From Thermoplasmata archaeon (lineage in GTDB: Archaea > Thermoplasmatota > DTKX01 > VGTL01): a stretch of 64,000 nucleotides of DNA. Made by a program: the position numbers and the translations under genes. The notes under the pieces were generated by a model that saw nothing but the letters and a program-made list of their open reading frames with translations, ran no database searches and was not told the origin of the DNA. Location of the stretch: contig JAWCLH010000002.1 in NCBI GenBank assembly GCA_038851035.1, forward strand, positions 1 to 64,000, written 5' to 3'. Positions 31,482-37,515 of the stretch are shown piece after piece (the stretch's first letter is position 1; every line of letters begins with the position of its first letter).

Positions 31482-32129
31482 ATGGCTGGCAACCGCTCCC
31501 GCACCATCGCTCTCCGCGTCGGGAGCTCCAGCCTGACCATTTTTCCCACAATCAGGGGTCTGGAAAGCGAGAGGCCCCTTGTGCGAGAGGCTGTGGCGGA
31601 GGTCAGCCCCAGGGCCGTCGCTCTGCCCATCTCGATAGAGGGATTGAGGGGTCTGAGGGAGCTTTACAGGGGCAAGGAACCTGAGGTGTTCCTTTCCCAT
31701 TATGAGGAGATATACGCAAGTCATCTATCAAAATACGGCCGTGTATCGGTACCGCCTCCGAGCTTCAGCGAGGCCTATGCCGCCAGCGTCGAGCGAGGCA
31801 TACCTGTGAAGGCAATTGACCTGAGCGAGAGGGAATATGCCGACGCATTCTGCGAGAGCGTCTCCACAGCCAGTCTCCTGTTCCACTCCCTGCGCTGGCG
31901 TTGGCTTAGGAGGAAAAGATTCAGGGAGGAGACGCCCGAGGATTTCGTCCTTGCGTGGGACAGAGTCATCAATTCCTTGAAGGGGTTTCGAGAACTCGAG
32001 ACGAAAAGGGAGGAGCACATGGCCGCGCGCCTGCGTCACCTCTCAGGTAAGTATTCGTCAATTCTTGCAATTTTAGAGCTAGAAAGGACTGAGGGTGTGG
32101 TGAGAAGACTGAGGGGGGAGGGGAATTGA
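31482..32129 (+). CDS. conserved-looking protein of unknown function
   Basis: 215 residues from the ATG at 31482 (GTG at 31473 also possible), with a GGGGGGTG ribosome-binding stretch upstream. Mixed alpha/beta sequence without membrane segments. SPRAVALPISIEGLRGL and GIPVKAIDLSEREYADAF, then a basic helix and a final KREEHMAARLRHLSGKYSSI, faintly recall TraB/Tiki-like proteins, where a DERDxxMA helix precedes a final strand. I cannot support that assignment. It lies between the COG1395 regulator and the first M14 peptidase, and its stop overlaps the TTG start of the latter. Confidence 0.75.
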   Translation: MAGNRSRTIALRVGSSSLTIFPTIRGLESERPLVREAVAEVSPRAVALPISIEGLRGLRELYRGKEPEVFLSHYEEIYASHLSKYGRVSVPPPSFSEAYAASVERGIPVKAIDLSEREYADAFCESVSTASLLFHSLRWRWLRRKRFREETPEDFVLAWDRVINSLKGFRELETKREEHMAARLRHLSGKYSSILAILELERTEGVVRRLRGEGN

Positions 32130-35100
32130 AAGCGCTTAAGGGCCTGAAACCCCCAATGCAGTCCCGTCTCAGGAGAGCTCTTCTGATAGTCATGGCTGTG
32201 CAGTGCCTGATTCTCCCACTCCCCCCCTCCTCTGCAACTGATATCCGTGAATTGGGCTCGTTCAGGGCGGGATACCACACCTATGATTCCATGACGCAGG
32301 AGCTGAGGGCGCTCGAGGCCAGCCACCCGGACTTGGTTATGGTGGAGAGCTTGGGCAGGACCTATGAGGACCGGGACATCTGGGCTGTGAAAATCTCGGA
32401 CGACGTCCGGACCAACGACAGCGCAGAGCCCGACGTCCTCATTATGGGCGGACTCCACGCCCGTGAAATCATGGGTGTGGAGGTCCCTCTCTACCTCATC
32501 AACTACCTAATAAAAAATTACGGAACTAATGAGACCTGCACCATGCTCGTGAACACAAGGGAGGTATGGTTCGTTCCCATGGCAAACCCCGACGGCCACG
32601 TTTACGTGGAGCGCGGGAACGACTGGCGGAAGAACCGCAGGCCAACAGTCGGGGGAAACATTGGGGTAGACCTCAACAGGAATTGGGGCTACATGTTCGG
32701 TGTAGACGCTCAGACCAGCGACGACCCCTCATCTGACGTATACCACGGCCCCTATCCTTTTTCCGAGAACGAGACGAGGGCAATAAGCGAGCTCGCGCTC
32801 AGACAGCGCTTCGCCACTTCCCTCTCCTTCCACAGCTACGGGCAGTTGATTCTCTACCCGTGGGGCTTTACCACAGACCCCGCTCCCGACAGCGAGGAGC
32901 TCGAAAGGATGGCGCGCGCGATGGCGGCCATAAATGGCTACACGCCCCAGCAGTCCTCGAGGCTCTACCTGACCCACGGCGATTCGGAAGACTGGCTCTA
33001 CGCCAACACGAGCACGCTGGCCTTTACCTTCGAGCTGGACACCTCTTTCTACCCCCCGGCGAGCCAAATTGAGACGACCTGCAGCCTCAACTGCGAAGCG
33101 GTGATTTACCTCATAGCCTATCCTAAAGCGCTCATCGTCGATGCTGGCGTGGTCGCGATATCTTCCCCGACACCGGGTGCCATTGTCGAGCCTGATAGGC
33201 CCTTAAACATCACAGCCACGGTGATGAACTTCGGGACAGACGCATCGGAGATTCCGATTGAGATTGAGGTGTCCTCGGCCGATGGCTATCTCCACACAAA
33301 TTCGACCTCAGTCACACTCAGACCGGGCCAGTTGGGCGAGGCCTTCTTTCAGTGGTTCCCTCCTTTCCCGGGCTCGGAGAATTACACCCTAGCAGTCCGC
33401 ACCAAACTGGGTGGAGACCATTATAGTTGGAACGATGAGCGCACCACTCAGTTTAAAATAAGAACAAAATACGGCGCCGCGCTATCAGCAGACGAGACAT
33501 CAAAGGAGTGCTTCCCCGGCCAGAGCGCCATCTATAGGCTCACTGTGATGAGCCTGAGCAACAGGGAGGATTGTATTCTGCTGGAGCTCGAAGGGGCCCG
33601 CAGGGATTTGGCTAGCATTGTGGACAGCATCCACCTCCCTCCGGGAGGGGCAGGGGAGGTGAACTTGACTGTGCGAATTCCGAGAGATGCGTCGCCGGGA
33701 GAGAGGGTTTACGTAGCGGTCCGCGCCCTATCCTCAACGGGGCAGGGGGCCTCCGGCCTCGTCTCCACCGTCACCACGGTTCTTGACCCCTCCCCCGTCG
33801 CGGATGCGGGTCCGGATATTGTGGTCGACGTGATGGAGGAGGTCGAATTCGATGCCACAGCCTCCACGAGTCCGGCGGGCACGATTGTGCGTTACTCCTG
33901 GGTATTCGGCGACGGGACCACTGCCGAGGGGCTCCGGGTCCGCCACGCCTATTCCCGGCGCGGCCTCTATACTGTTAATTTGACAGTCGAAAATGAATTC
34001 GGCTGGAGCGATACCGACTCCCTTCTGGTCACGGTCATCCAGAATTTCAGCCTCAGGCTTGAAACGCCCGCATTGGAACTCTCTCTCAGGCCGGCAGAAA
34101 CCAAGACCATCAACCTCACGCTGAGAAACATGGGCAACGGCGCCGATGAAGTGGAAGTCAAGCTGGACGCTCTCAGATGGAGCGCCTCCATCGACAGGTT
34201 ACGGATTTCTCTTCAGAGCGGGGAGAGCGCCGGAATCACCCTCTGCATTACTGCACCGGAGAGAGCGACTGCGGGCTCGAGCGCCATGTTCAGAGTCACG
34301 GCGGCTTCGTTGGAGAGCCCCTACGCCCGTGACGAAGTCATCATCAGAGCGACTGTGGCCGAGGTCAGGGATTTAAACCTGATGGTGGAGGAGAGGGAGG
34401 GAGCGGTAGAGGCGGGAGGGTCGGTGCGTTTCATAGCCATCGTCGAGAATAAGGGGAACGTAAACGAAACACTCGTCTTGGTAGCTGCGGAAATTCCGGA
34501 GGAGTGGAGGGTAGCCTTCTCCCAGCAGGAGCTCACTATTCCACCATGGAGCAATGCTTCGGTCGAGATTCTGGTGTGCGTGCCCGCACGGGCTCTAGCG
34601 GGAGTCTACAGATTGTTCGTCAACGGCCTCGGACTTGAGGTTTCGGTGAGGGCGAGGTACGGCCTCACGGCCTCTGTGGAGCCTCTGAACGCAACCGCGA
34701 GACCTGGCGGGCGTGTCGTTTTCACAATCAACTTCACGAACATGGGCAATGCTCCCGACTCATTCACGCTCAATGTCTCAAACCTTCCCATGGGATGGGG
34801 CACTGACCCCCTTCTCCCGCCTTCTGAGGTAGCTCCGGGCGCGAATGGGTCCATGCACGTCTCAGTCCAGATTCCTGAAGATGTCCGGTCGGGGGGATAC
34901 GATATTGTGCTTGAGCTCCGCTCGGACAATTACCCCGGTGCGTCCGTGTCTCTGCCCGTTCGAGTGGTGGTCGAGAGGCAGGAGCCACCACCCACCAATT
35001 CCACTGTGCATGCATTTCCATCTATCTTATGGCCTCCACTGGCTCTCGCAGCTGCGGGTGCTGTGCTCGCTATATATCTCAGCAGGCGCAGGAAAAAGTG

Positions 35101-35389
35101 CCATGGGGGACCGGCCAAGGGTTGGGACGTGGATTCCCGGCCGGGAGCTGGAGAAGGCGCCGAGAACGCCCCGGCGGGGCCCCTGCCGCAGACCGATGGG
35201 TGGGATCCCAGCATCCAAGCTACTCGTGCGGTTTCAGGGAGAGAACTGGAGCCCTGGGAGACCTGCCTCTGGTGCTTTGGCCAGCTGGGGCGAGAGCCAT
35301 CGATTCCCTGCCCGTCTTGCGGTGGAACCTTCCATAGGCGCTGCGCCCAGGAGGCCCGCGGGTGTACTAGATGCGGCGGGCCGCTTTGA
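32126..35389 (+). CDS. membrane-anchored M14 carboxypeptidase with PKD/NEW3 domains and cytoplasmic RING-order zinc finger
   Basis: 1087 residues from the TTG at 32126 (ATG at 32156 alternative). Signal peptide to about 38. An M14 zinc carboxypeptidase domain spans 45-330, with all key residues: H111 and E114 (GGLHARE), NR in VDLNRNWG, H236 (SFHSYG) and catalytic E303 (FTFELD). Then CARDB/NEW3, PKD (about 552-640, WVFGDGT) and more NEW3 domains, a membrane segment at about 965-990, and RRRKK. The cytoplasmic tail ends in a zinc-finger pattern C1047-x2-C, C1062-x2-C, H1070, C1073, C1080-x2-C1083. The peptidase trims C-terminal residues of extracellular peptides; the zinc finger is unexpected. 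The TTG overlaps the previous stop. Confidence 0.85.
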   Translation: MKALKGLKPPMQSRLRRALLIVMAVQCLILPLPPSSATDIRELGSFRAGYHTYDSMTQELRALEASHPDLVMVESLGRTYEDRDIWAVKISDDVRTNDSAEPDVLIMGGLHAREIMGVEVPLYLINYLIKNYGTNETCTMLVNTREVWFVPMANPDGHVYVERGNDWRKNRRPTVGGNIGVDLNRNWGYMFGVDAQTSDDPSSDVYHGPYPFSENETRAISELALRQRFATSLSFHSYGQLILYPWGFTTDPAPDSEELERMARAMAAINGYTPQQSSRLYLTHGDSEDWLYANTSTLAFTFELDTSFYPPASQIETTCSLNCEAVIYLIAYPKALIVDAGVVAISSPTPGAIVEPDRPLNITATVMNFGTDASEIPIEIEVSSADGYLHTNSTSVTLRPGQLGEAFFQWFPPFPGSENYTLAVRTKLGGDHYSWNDERTTQFKIRTKYGAALSADETSKECFPGQSAIYRLTVMSLSNREDCILLELEGARRDLASIVDSIHLPPGGAGEVNLTVRIPRDASPGERVYVAVRALSSTGQGASGLVSTVTTVLDPSPVADAGPDIVVDVMEEVEFDATASTSPAGTIVRYSWVFGDGTTAEGLRVRHAYSRRGLYTVNLTVENEFGWSDTDSLLVTVIQNFSLRLETPALELSLRPAETKTINLTLRNMGNGADEVEVKLDALRWSASIDRLRISLQSGESAGITLCITAPERATAGSSAMFRVTAASLESPYARDEVIIRATVAEVRDLNLMVEEREGAVEAGGSVRFIAIVENKGNVNETLVLVAAEIPEEWRVAFSQQELTIPPWSNASVEILVCVPARALAGVYRLFVNGLGLEVSVRARYGLTASVEPLNATARPGGRVVFTINFTNMGNAPDSFTLNVSNLPMGWGTDPLLPPSEVAPGANGSMHVSVQIPEDVRSGGYDIVLELRSDNYPGASVSLPVRVVVERQEPPPTNSTVHAFPSILWPPLALAAAGAVLAIYLSRRRKKCHGGPAKGWDVDSRPGAGEGAENAPAGPLPQTDGWDPSIQATRAVSGRELEPWETCLWCFGQLGREPSIPCPSCGGTFHRRCAQEARGCTRCGGPL

Positions 35390-35424: not shown

Positions 35425-35445
35425 GCGTGCTCGTAGGTGGAGCGA

Positions 35446-37515
35446 ATGCGCAAATTGGTCTCCCTTGGCATTGTCCTCCTCTTCTTGGCCTTGCCGCCCT
35501 CGGAGAGCTGTTCAGGGGAAGGAAGGGATGAAGGGCTCGGCCGCTATCATACTTATCAGGAGATGGTGACAGAGCTCCAAGACCTCACCGCCACCCACAC
35601 AACTATCTCACGTCTCATCACCATTGGGGAGACCTACGAGGGGAGGAGGATCTGGGCAGTGAAGATATCGGACAACGCGAGCGAGGACGAGGCCGAGCCG
35701 AACATGACGATTATTGGAGGCATACACGCCCGCGAGTTCATATCGGTGGAGGTGCCGCTCTACATAATTCACAACCTTCTCGGGAATTATACCTCCAACT
35801 CCACGATAAAACGCTTTGTTGATAGTACCCAGATATGGGTCGTGCCGATGCTCAACCCCGACGGGCATGTTTATGTAGAGCTGGGCCATGACTGGAGGAA
35901 GAACAGGAGACCTGTGGATGGGGGAGTCGGGGTTGACCTGAACCGCAACTTCGGCCATTTATGGGGCCTGGAGGCAAGCCACAATCCCACAGACGAGAAT
36001 TACTGCGGCCCGGGGCCTTTCTCGGAGAACGAGACCAAAGCTATTGAGGGGCTGGTCACCTCCCACCGCCCGCGTGTGGCGCTGAGCTATCAAAGCTTCG
36101 GGGGCTATATCCTTTATCCTTGGGGCAATTCAATCAACACCGAGCCCGTTGACCCCCTTCTCCCCGCTCTTGCACTAAATATGTCCCTTGTGATGCCGGA
36201 GGGGAGGAGATACACACCCATGATGGCGCGCGAGATGTACCCAGCGACGGGCGACACGGACGACTATTTCTACGCAAATTTCAGCATCCTTCCGTTCACG
36301 GTCGAGCTCTCGAATTCCCATCGTCCACCCGACCAAGAAGTGGACGGAATCTGTCTTGACAATCTTCCCCCTGCCCACCTCCTCATGAATTTCACCGCAG
36401 GTCCAGCACCCGAGCCGCCGCTGCATCGGATTTCTCTTGATGGGCCAAACTCGTTCATCAGCGCTCCTGGCAGGTTGGTTAGGATGGAATACCTTCTTGT
36501 CAACGAGGGGGAGGCTACTGAGGAGGTGGAGCTCTCGATAGAAACTGAGTTCAATTGGACCGCGGAACTCCTGAACCGCCACGTGAGTCTAGAACCGGGG
36601 CAGAGCGCCTTGATTTTCCTAGAAATAATGGTTCCCGCCACAGCCGCCGCATATGAGAGCGCGAGTTTTCTGCTGCGTGCTAAGTCAGCAGGCGGCGTTG
36701 TGGCAGAGCTTAGAATTCTGGGCAGAGCGGAGCATCTGCGGGGTCTTCGGGCGTCGCTCAGCGGACAGACAGAGGCCGCTCCGGGAGGTTCGGTGAACAT
36801 CAGCGCGACCGTCGAGAACCTAGGGAATGGGCCTGAACTACTTGCACTCTCCGCCGGGCTGAGCACGGGCTGGCAGATCTCTCCACTTCCAAATCCACTC
36901 AACCTGAGTGCCGGGGAGAGAGCGGTCGTGTTCATCACATTTCTGGTTCCAGCCTCAGCCCGGGCGGATACCCCCGTTGAGTTAATATTCACCGCCAGAG
37001 CCGAGGGGGTGGCACCGGCGAGGGCCATCCACACTATTTCCATCCTTCCGGTGAGGAATGTTACAATGGAAATCCTTCCATCCAGCGCCAGATTTCCTGA
37101 AGGGGAAACGAGGAATGTTAGTATAAGAATAGCCAACAACGGTAACGTCTGGGAAAACGGGACTCTGGTGCTATCCGGAAGATATGGGGCATCGAGAATC
37201 CAAAACGCGAGCGTCAATATTCCTCCATTCTCAACAATCAACGCAACCCTGACCCTCGGCGCCGCCAGAGGCCATTGGTCCCTCACCGTGATGTTCCTGT
37301 CGGCCTCAGGGGAGCTCAGGGCGAGCCGAATCGTTAACTTCACCGTTATAGAGAACACGACGGTCGCGGGCGCGGGTCCGCCAGGTGACCCAGTCCTACT
37401 CTTTGCAGTCCTTGTGATTGTTTTAGTCTCTGTGATGGGCATAATTTACTGGGACTGGCGGAGGGAGGAGAGGCTGGAGCTGGAGGAAAGGGAGAGGAGG
37501 CCAAGGAACCGCTGA
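35446..37515 (+). CDS. M14 carboxypeptidase-like surface protein, likely inactive (zinc ligand His to Gln)
   Basis: 689 residues, paralogue of the preceding gene over the peptidase domain. Signal peptide (LVSLGIVLLFLALPPSES), M14 domain about 33-320, NEW3/CARDB-type domains about 335-640, a membrane segment (LLFAVLVIVLVSVMGIIYW) and a charged tail. H94 and E97 (GGIHARE), the NR pair and E288 (FTVEL) are kept. The third zinc ligand is replaced: SYQSFGG at 214-220 has Gln216 where the paralogue has His. Zinc binding is therefore probably impaired. It has its own TATA element and lacks the zinc-finger tail of its neighbour. Confidence 0.85.
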   Translation: MRKLVSLGIVLLFLALPPSESCSGEGRDEGLGRYHTYQEMVTELQDLTATHTTISRLITIGETYEGRRIWAVKISDNASEDEAEPNMTIIGGIHAREFISVEVPLYIIHNLLGNYTSNSTIKRFVDSTQIWVVPMLNPDGHVYVELGHDWRKNRRPVDGGVGVDLNRNFGHLWGLEASHNPTDENYCGPGPFSENETKAIEGLVTSHRPRVALSYQSFGGYILYPWGNSINTEPVDPLLPALALNMSLVMPEGRRYTPMMAREMYPATGDTDDYFYANFSILPFTVELSNSHRPPDQEVDGICLDNLPPAHLLMNFTAGPAPEPPLHRISLDGPNSFISAPGRLVRMEYLLVNEGEATEEVELSIETEFNWTAELLNRHVSLEPGQSALIFLEIMVPATAAAYESASFLLRAKSAGGVVAELRILGRAEHLRGLRASLSGQTEAAPGGSVNISATVENLGNGPELLALSAGLSTGWQISPLPNPLNLSAGERAVVFITFLVPASARADTPVELIFTARAEGVAPARAIHTISILPVRNVTMEILPSSARFPEGETRNVSIRIANNGNVWENGTLVLSGRYGASRIQNASVNIPPFSTINATLTLGAARGHWSLTVMFLSASGELRASRIVNFTVIENTTVAGAGPPGDPVLLFAVLVIVLVSVMGIIYWDWRREERLELEERERRPRNR

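Follow-up and report, generated by a model that had tools for sequence, protein, structure and literature searches.

A probable RING finger on the cytoplasmic tail of a surface carboxypeptidase from a Thermoplasmata archaeon

A surface carboxypeptidase encoded in a 64,000-nucleotide stretch of DNA from a Thermoplasmata archaeon (hereafter the window) very probably ends in a RING finger of the Prok-RING_1 group. We consider it probable that this RING is a membrane-anchored, E3-like module that recruits the E2 of a ubiquitin-like cascade encoded by the same genome, with E2 binding and ligase activity as the properties we infer for it. This reading draws on the homology of the domain, its predicted fold, its positive-inside topology, the presence and clustering of the cascade genes, and a co-occurrence that extends across the phylum.

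Archaeal RING proteins accompanied by a ubiquitin-like cascade are a known kind of system, and Burroughs and colleagues reportedly surveyed prokaryotic RINGs in 2011. Within the open-access literature that we searched, which yielded no account of archaeal surface proteins with a transmembrane helix and a RING, three things appear to be new: the phylum-wide architecture of such proteins, the fusion to a peptidase, and the fusion of a RING to a JAMM peptidase on one surface protein.

The RING tail and its surface peptidase

Features of the gene and of the cascade genes discussed below are collected in Table 1. Residues are counted from a TTG codon, and an ATG at position 32156 is the likelier start. 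The protein has the make-up of an M14 metallocarboxypeptidase, namely an M14 domain with the HxxE, H and E residues, and the motifs concerned (HARE with H111, SFHSYG and FELD) are all intact. The membrane helix has no lysine or arginine in the 12 residues before it and five after it, where SRRRKK follows, and the positive-inside rule therefore places the tail in the cytoplasm. Hydropathy and this count agree with the sequence-only reading, which had put the zinc finger on the cytoplasmic side after one membrane helix and a linker. The neighbouring M14 paralog that has no RING is a natural internal control.

Table 1. Features of the surface peptidase region (window positions) and genes of the cascade cluster in the same genome
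Feature	Position	Strand	Basis or remark
Surface M14 carboxypeptidase with C-terminal RING	32126..35389	+	1087 aa counted from TTG
N-terminal hydrophobic signal segment, res. 15-33	32168..32224	+	hydropathy
Peptidase_M14 catalytic domain, res. 56-324	32291..33097	+	PF00246 5.5e-74
PKD domain, res. 556-637	33791..34036	+	PF18911 8.5e-24
NPCBM_assoc (NEW3-type) / FixG_C Ig-like stalk, ~res. 638-950	34037..34975	+	PF10633 7.2e-23, four stretches; PF11614 3.2e-11
Single transmembrane helix, res. 967-985, then SRRRKK	35024..35080	+	hydropathy, positive-inside count
Cytoplasmic linker, low-complexity Gly/Pro/Ala	35081..35263	+	
Prok-RING_1-type RING domain (probable), C4HC3, res. 1047-1083	35264..35374	+	
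Tandem paralogous M14 surface peptidase	35437..37515	+	TM and short charged tail, no RING
Cluster gene 1: 971-aa surface protein			PKD/Ig repeats, one helix, C-terminal RING; abuts E1
Cluster gene 2: E1			ThiF 2.8e-47; directly adjoins RING-tailed surface protein
Cluster gene 3: giant coiled-coil-like protein	G000:C3:113663-123130		3155-aa frame, C-terminal RING
Cluster gene 4: ubiquitin-like protein			C-terminus GGG
Cluster gene 5: E2			UQ_con 8e-15; HPN and Cys present
Cluster gene 6: JAMM peptidase			hydrophobic C-terminal segment (TM)

The tail runs for 41 residues from the first ligand, C1 (residue 1047, nucleotide 35264), to the end of the protein, and its ligands lie at positions 1047, 1050, 1062, 1065, 1070 (the histidine), 1073, 1080 and 1083 (C8). 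This is exactly the spacing that had been read from the sequence, C-x2-C-x11-C-x2-C-x4-H-x2-C-x6-C-x2-C. When all 638 open reading frames of the window were searched with an independent RING profile, the tail was found at E=9e-8 and the runner-up at 0.44. Among 5000 shuffles of the tail, the best reached 9.5 bits versus 34.2 for the real sequence. Given these two results, the RING signature is more than chance. The independent profile has 14 member RINGs, 12 of family f5 and two of f29, all from other Thermoplasmatota genomes and none of the window's class. They had been gathered with another profile (A1) to which the window tail had contributed, so their collection was not blind, but the model itself is window-free.

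Against the Pfam model of Prok-RING_1 (PF14446), the tail scored 14.5 bits within the full-length protein, 19.7 bits alone and 19.5 bits in the genome search, and did not reach the curated cut-off of 29.1 bits. Two relatives do exceed it (L164 with 32.3 bits and L173 with 33.7 bits), and the profile that recovers the window tail contains the first of these, so that the tail is homologous to members that pass. The comparison with profile models therefore assigns the tail to the Prok-RING_1 group. Its spacing (x2, x11, x2, x4, x2, x6, x2) fits that of the archaeal group (x2, x10-14, x1-2, x4, x2, x4-8, x2). The C4HC3 order, which had been linked to RING-v and PHD fingers, is present as described, but it is ordinary in the archaeal group, where 81 of 87 domains have it. 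No special tie to RING-v/PHD proteins is therefore needed, and we rejected kinship to MARCH or PHD proteins on this ground. A profile of four RING tails from the window genome matched eukaryotic E3 RINGs in the PDB (RNF4, 8e-6; AMFR, 3e-4; EL5, 4e-4; RNF13, 0.025).

For the window tail, AlphaFold2, run on an alignment of two sequences, gave a pLDDT of 89.4, although two of the five models were near 62. Foldseek aligned the tail model with RING and PHD fingers at TM scores of 0.5-0.76, none of them at E<=0.001. The model suggests that the tail adopts a RING/PHD-like fold, and the fold matches point to two zinc sites. The paired plain zinc ribbons named beforehand as the outcome that would count against a RING were not obtained in this predicted structure. 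For the RING of the corresponding operon in a sister genome, AlphaFold2 gave a pLDDT of 85 and a Foldseek top list composed throughout of E3 RINGs (probability 0.96-1.00), many of them from structures of E2~Ub complexes.

Cascade genes and RING proteins across Thermoplasmata relatives

The Prok-RING_1 search uncovered three further RING tails in the window genome, and a fifth was found with the A1 profile. It had been suggested that the genome be searched for ubiquitin-like, E1 and E2 genes, and this search located an E1, a modifier with a C-terminal GGG, an E2, a JAMM peptidase and RING proteins in a single cluster of six genes on one strand (C3:109973-125070). The window RING thus has an E1, an E2 and a modifier in its own genome, and the peptidase gene itself lies outside the cluster. 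The genome also has two subunit genes of a 20S proteasome. The giant coiled-coil RING protein of about 3150 aa encoded between the E1 and the ubiquitin-like gene is kept in the sister genome (L121:5619-15170). A second cluster, on C47 (L120:7008-9509; L125:5515-9183), comprises an E1, a HAD-family phosphatase-like gene, an E2 and a ubiquitin-like gene whose product ends in IPDPEGG; no RING or JAMM gene was found in the stretch of it that was examined.

Clusters of E1, Ub, E2 and JAMM genes recur among relatives. HPN and the cysteine are invariant in an alignment of 19 E2 sequences, and a C-terminal GG is present in all 25 ubiquitin-like entries, which represent 23 distinct genes because two of the loci overlap with clusters of the window genome itself. 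A profile search with the E2 alignment yielded 80 named loci, only one of them with a RING detected by profile; their titles name Thermoplasmata/Thermoplasmatota, Methanomassiliicoccales or Euryarchaeota, and one reads just 'archaeon'. A search of genome contigs with the whole peptidase as query gave no matches.

Across 243 Thermoplasmatota genomes, 42 have both a RING (E<1e-5) and an E2, 14 a RING only, 9 an E2 only and 178 neither, such that an E2 is present in 42 of 56 RING-positive genomes versus 9 of 187 others (Fisher p=3.6e-26); it is important to note that the PF00179 model was added only for RING-positive genomes that had no first-pass E2, which contributed three genomes to the 'both' class and a slight upward bias. 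Given that the genomes are related, the count for 40 families is the safer figure (15 with both, 3 RING only, 2 E2 only, 20 neither; p=2e-6). RING proteins are also present in families f11, f24 and f35 (L155, L156, L157, L158, L190, L194, L199), where no PF00179/UQ_con E2 was detected in the RING-bearing genomes, so a RING need not imply this cascade.

Among the RING proteins retrieved, 31 are large membrane proteins with at least 300 residues before the helix and a RING after it, drawn from 21 genomes and 10 families. In 29 of the 31, lysine and arginine are more frequent on the side of the helix that bears the RING (124 versus 36 residues), and the two exceptions, L197 and L198, have several helices each. 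The ectodomains include cadherin/Ig/PKD arrays, cohesin-like domains, beta-helix, laminin-G and NHL repeats. A peptidase catalytic domain was recognised only in the window protein among the RING proteins scanned, and the fusion was found in the window genome only. The expectation that a fusion to an extracellular peptidase would be new appears to hold for the peptidase ectodomain, but a membrane-anchored surface RING as such is recurrent.

One protein of 1696 aa (L140:5941-11031, genome G079) combines a signal, a beta-helix ectodomain, one helix, a cytoplasmic RING and a JAB domain in which the H-S-H-P...S-x-x-D motif is intact. Judged by its domains, it is a surface protein that joins a RING to a putative de-conjugating JAMM peptidase. 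Another surface RING protein is encoded beside it (L140:1543-5472). In a separate genome, G041, RINGs are expanded to 17 matches (L126-L137), and one of its surface proteins has three RINGs in the tail (L128:4802-10765).

Possible roles of the membrane-anchored RING

If the RING acts as we propose, the E1 would charge the GGG-ending modifier, the E2 would receive it from the E1, and the RING, anchored in the membrane, would recruit the E2~modifier there. Tags for turnover might then be placed on the peptidase or on proteins near it, and a membrane-tethered JAMM peptidase could reverse the tagging. The activity of the peptidase outside the cell might be coupled to the RING. More tentatively, it is possible that the type I transmembrane RINGs of Thermoplasmatota, with their diverse sensory or enzymatic ectodomains, are receptor-like E3 ligases through which outside events such as peptide trimming control the tagging of membrane proteins. 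The recurrent membrane RING surface proteins, the RING-JAMM fusion and the RING gene that abuts the E1 point to the cell envelope as a site of archaeal ubiquitin-like tagging, and the membrane proteins offer concrete candidates for testing this. If true, the layout of transmembrane RING ligases is not exclusive to eukaryotes and receptor-type RING ligases exist in archaea. Protein tagging from the cell surface may work in these microbes in a way similar to that in our own cells.

Residues typical of E3 ligases bear on the foremost alternative, which we regard as rather unlikely: that the RING-fold module is a binding adaptor, PHD-like or docking an E2 or other partner, that links the peptidase to a partner in the cytoplasm and has no ligase activity. 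In RING E3s, the loop between C1 and C2 contacts the E2, and the window RING has a tryptophan at this contact position, which is hydrophobic in 76 of 81 members of the group. Active RINGs carry a linchpin arginine or lysine just after C8. The window RING has Gly-Gly there and a threonine in place of the C-P-x-C proline, both of which favour an adaptor, as do the mixture of RING and PHD fingers in the Foldseek list and the RING proteins of lineages that have no detectable E2. However, some RINGs that lack the linchpin are active, and close relatives retain these residues and adjoin E1 and E2 genes: 36 of 81 have R/K at C8+1 or +2, including all four other RING tails of the genome, and 63 of 81 have the proline. 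The strong co-occurrence of RING and E2 also argues against an adaptor. In the Caldiarchaeum RING, residues I30 and W58 matter (PMC5654768).

It is less probable still, and in our view improbable, that the tail is a recent acquisition in decay with little or no function, reflecting a shuffling of RING modules onto the tails of surface proteins. The peptidase ortholog in the nearest sister genome, G004, is 53% identical over residues 13-1001 and has no RING, since it ends about 25 aa past the helix, and the E1-adjacent surface protein has a RING tail in the window genome and a coiled-coil tail in G004. Cytoplasmic tails are therefore swapped or lost between genera, and of the five RING tails in the window genome, that of the peptidase is the sole one to lack R/K after C8. 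Against decay, the tail has kept each of its eight ligands, spaced as in the group, and its third-position GC resembles that of the gene body. Unlike the RING tails of the peptidase and the E1-adjacent protein, a pair of RING-tailed proteins (the C20 pair) is common to the two genomes; this tandem surface pair, one member of which has a long Pro-rich linker, is seen in both genera of the family (L023:4069-8754; L122:1-2347).

A plain pair of zinc ribbons or an unrelated treble-clef finger, such as the double zinc ribbon (DZR) of many archaeal membrane proteins, is very improbable and was rejected on profile and fold scores, because the DZR match (E 0.93) trails Prok-RING_1 by three orders, the relatives' RING profile finds the tail at 9e-8, and the ribbon-type matches near the top of the Foldseek list (HVO_2753 and a ribosomal zinc-finger protein) have TM scores of 0.44-0.45, with HVO_2753 at 0.45 versus up to 0.76 for RINGs.

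Relation to known systems

Returning to the E3-like module that we favour, its nearest relatives by profile are Prok-RING_1 proteins, with which it shares the C4HC3 order and spacing and, in its genome, a neighbourhood of E1, E2, ubiquitin-like and JAMM genes; it differs in scoring below the cut-off and in being placed at the cytoplasmic end of a surface peptidase. Surface M14 carboxypeptidases with PKD/NEW3 stalks are alike in catalytic motifs and stalk, whereas the paralog and the G004 ortholog have short tails that lack a RING. The operon of Caldiarchaeum subterraneum encodes Ub, E1, E2, srfp(E3) and JAMM/Rpn11, and its cascade has been reconstituted in vitro (PMC5654768). The Thermoplasmatota cluster resembles it in uniting genes for ubiquitin-like, E1, E2, RING E3-like and JAMM proteins. 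However, srfp is a small RING-H2 protein (C3H2C3), whereas in Thermoplasmatota the RINGs belong to giant coiled-coil proteins or to membrane proteins of the cell surface.

The PA-TM-RING E3 ligases (RNF13, RNF43/ZNRF3) and the plant RING-H2 protein EL5 have in common with the window protein a type I layout of signal, ectodomain, helix and cytosolic RING. Hydropathy and the positive-inside rule indicate the signal peptide, single helix and cytosolic C-terminal RING of the PA-TM-RING layout, but the ectodomains are unrelated (here M14 peptidase, PKD/Ig or beta-helix), and a Pfam scan of the window ectodomain detected M14, PKD and NEW3 and no PA domain. We regard the match in layout as an analogy and claim no common descent. 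The RINGs of RNF13 and EL5 were matched by both the profile and the fold searches.
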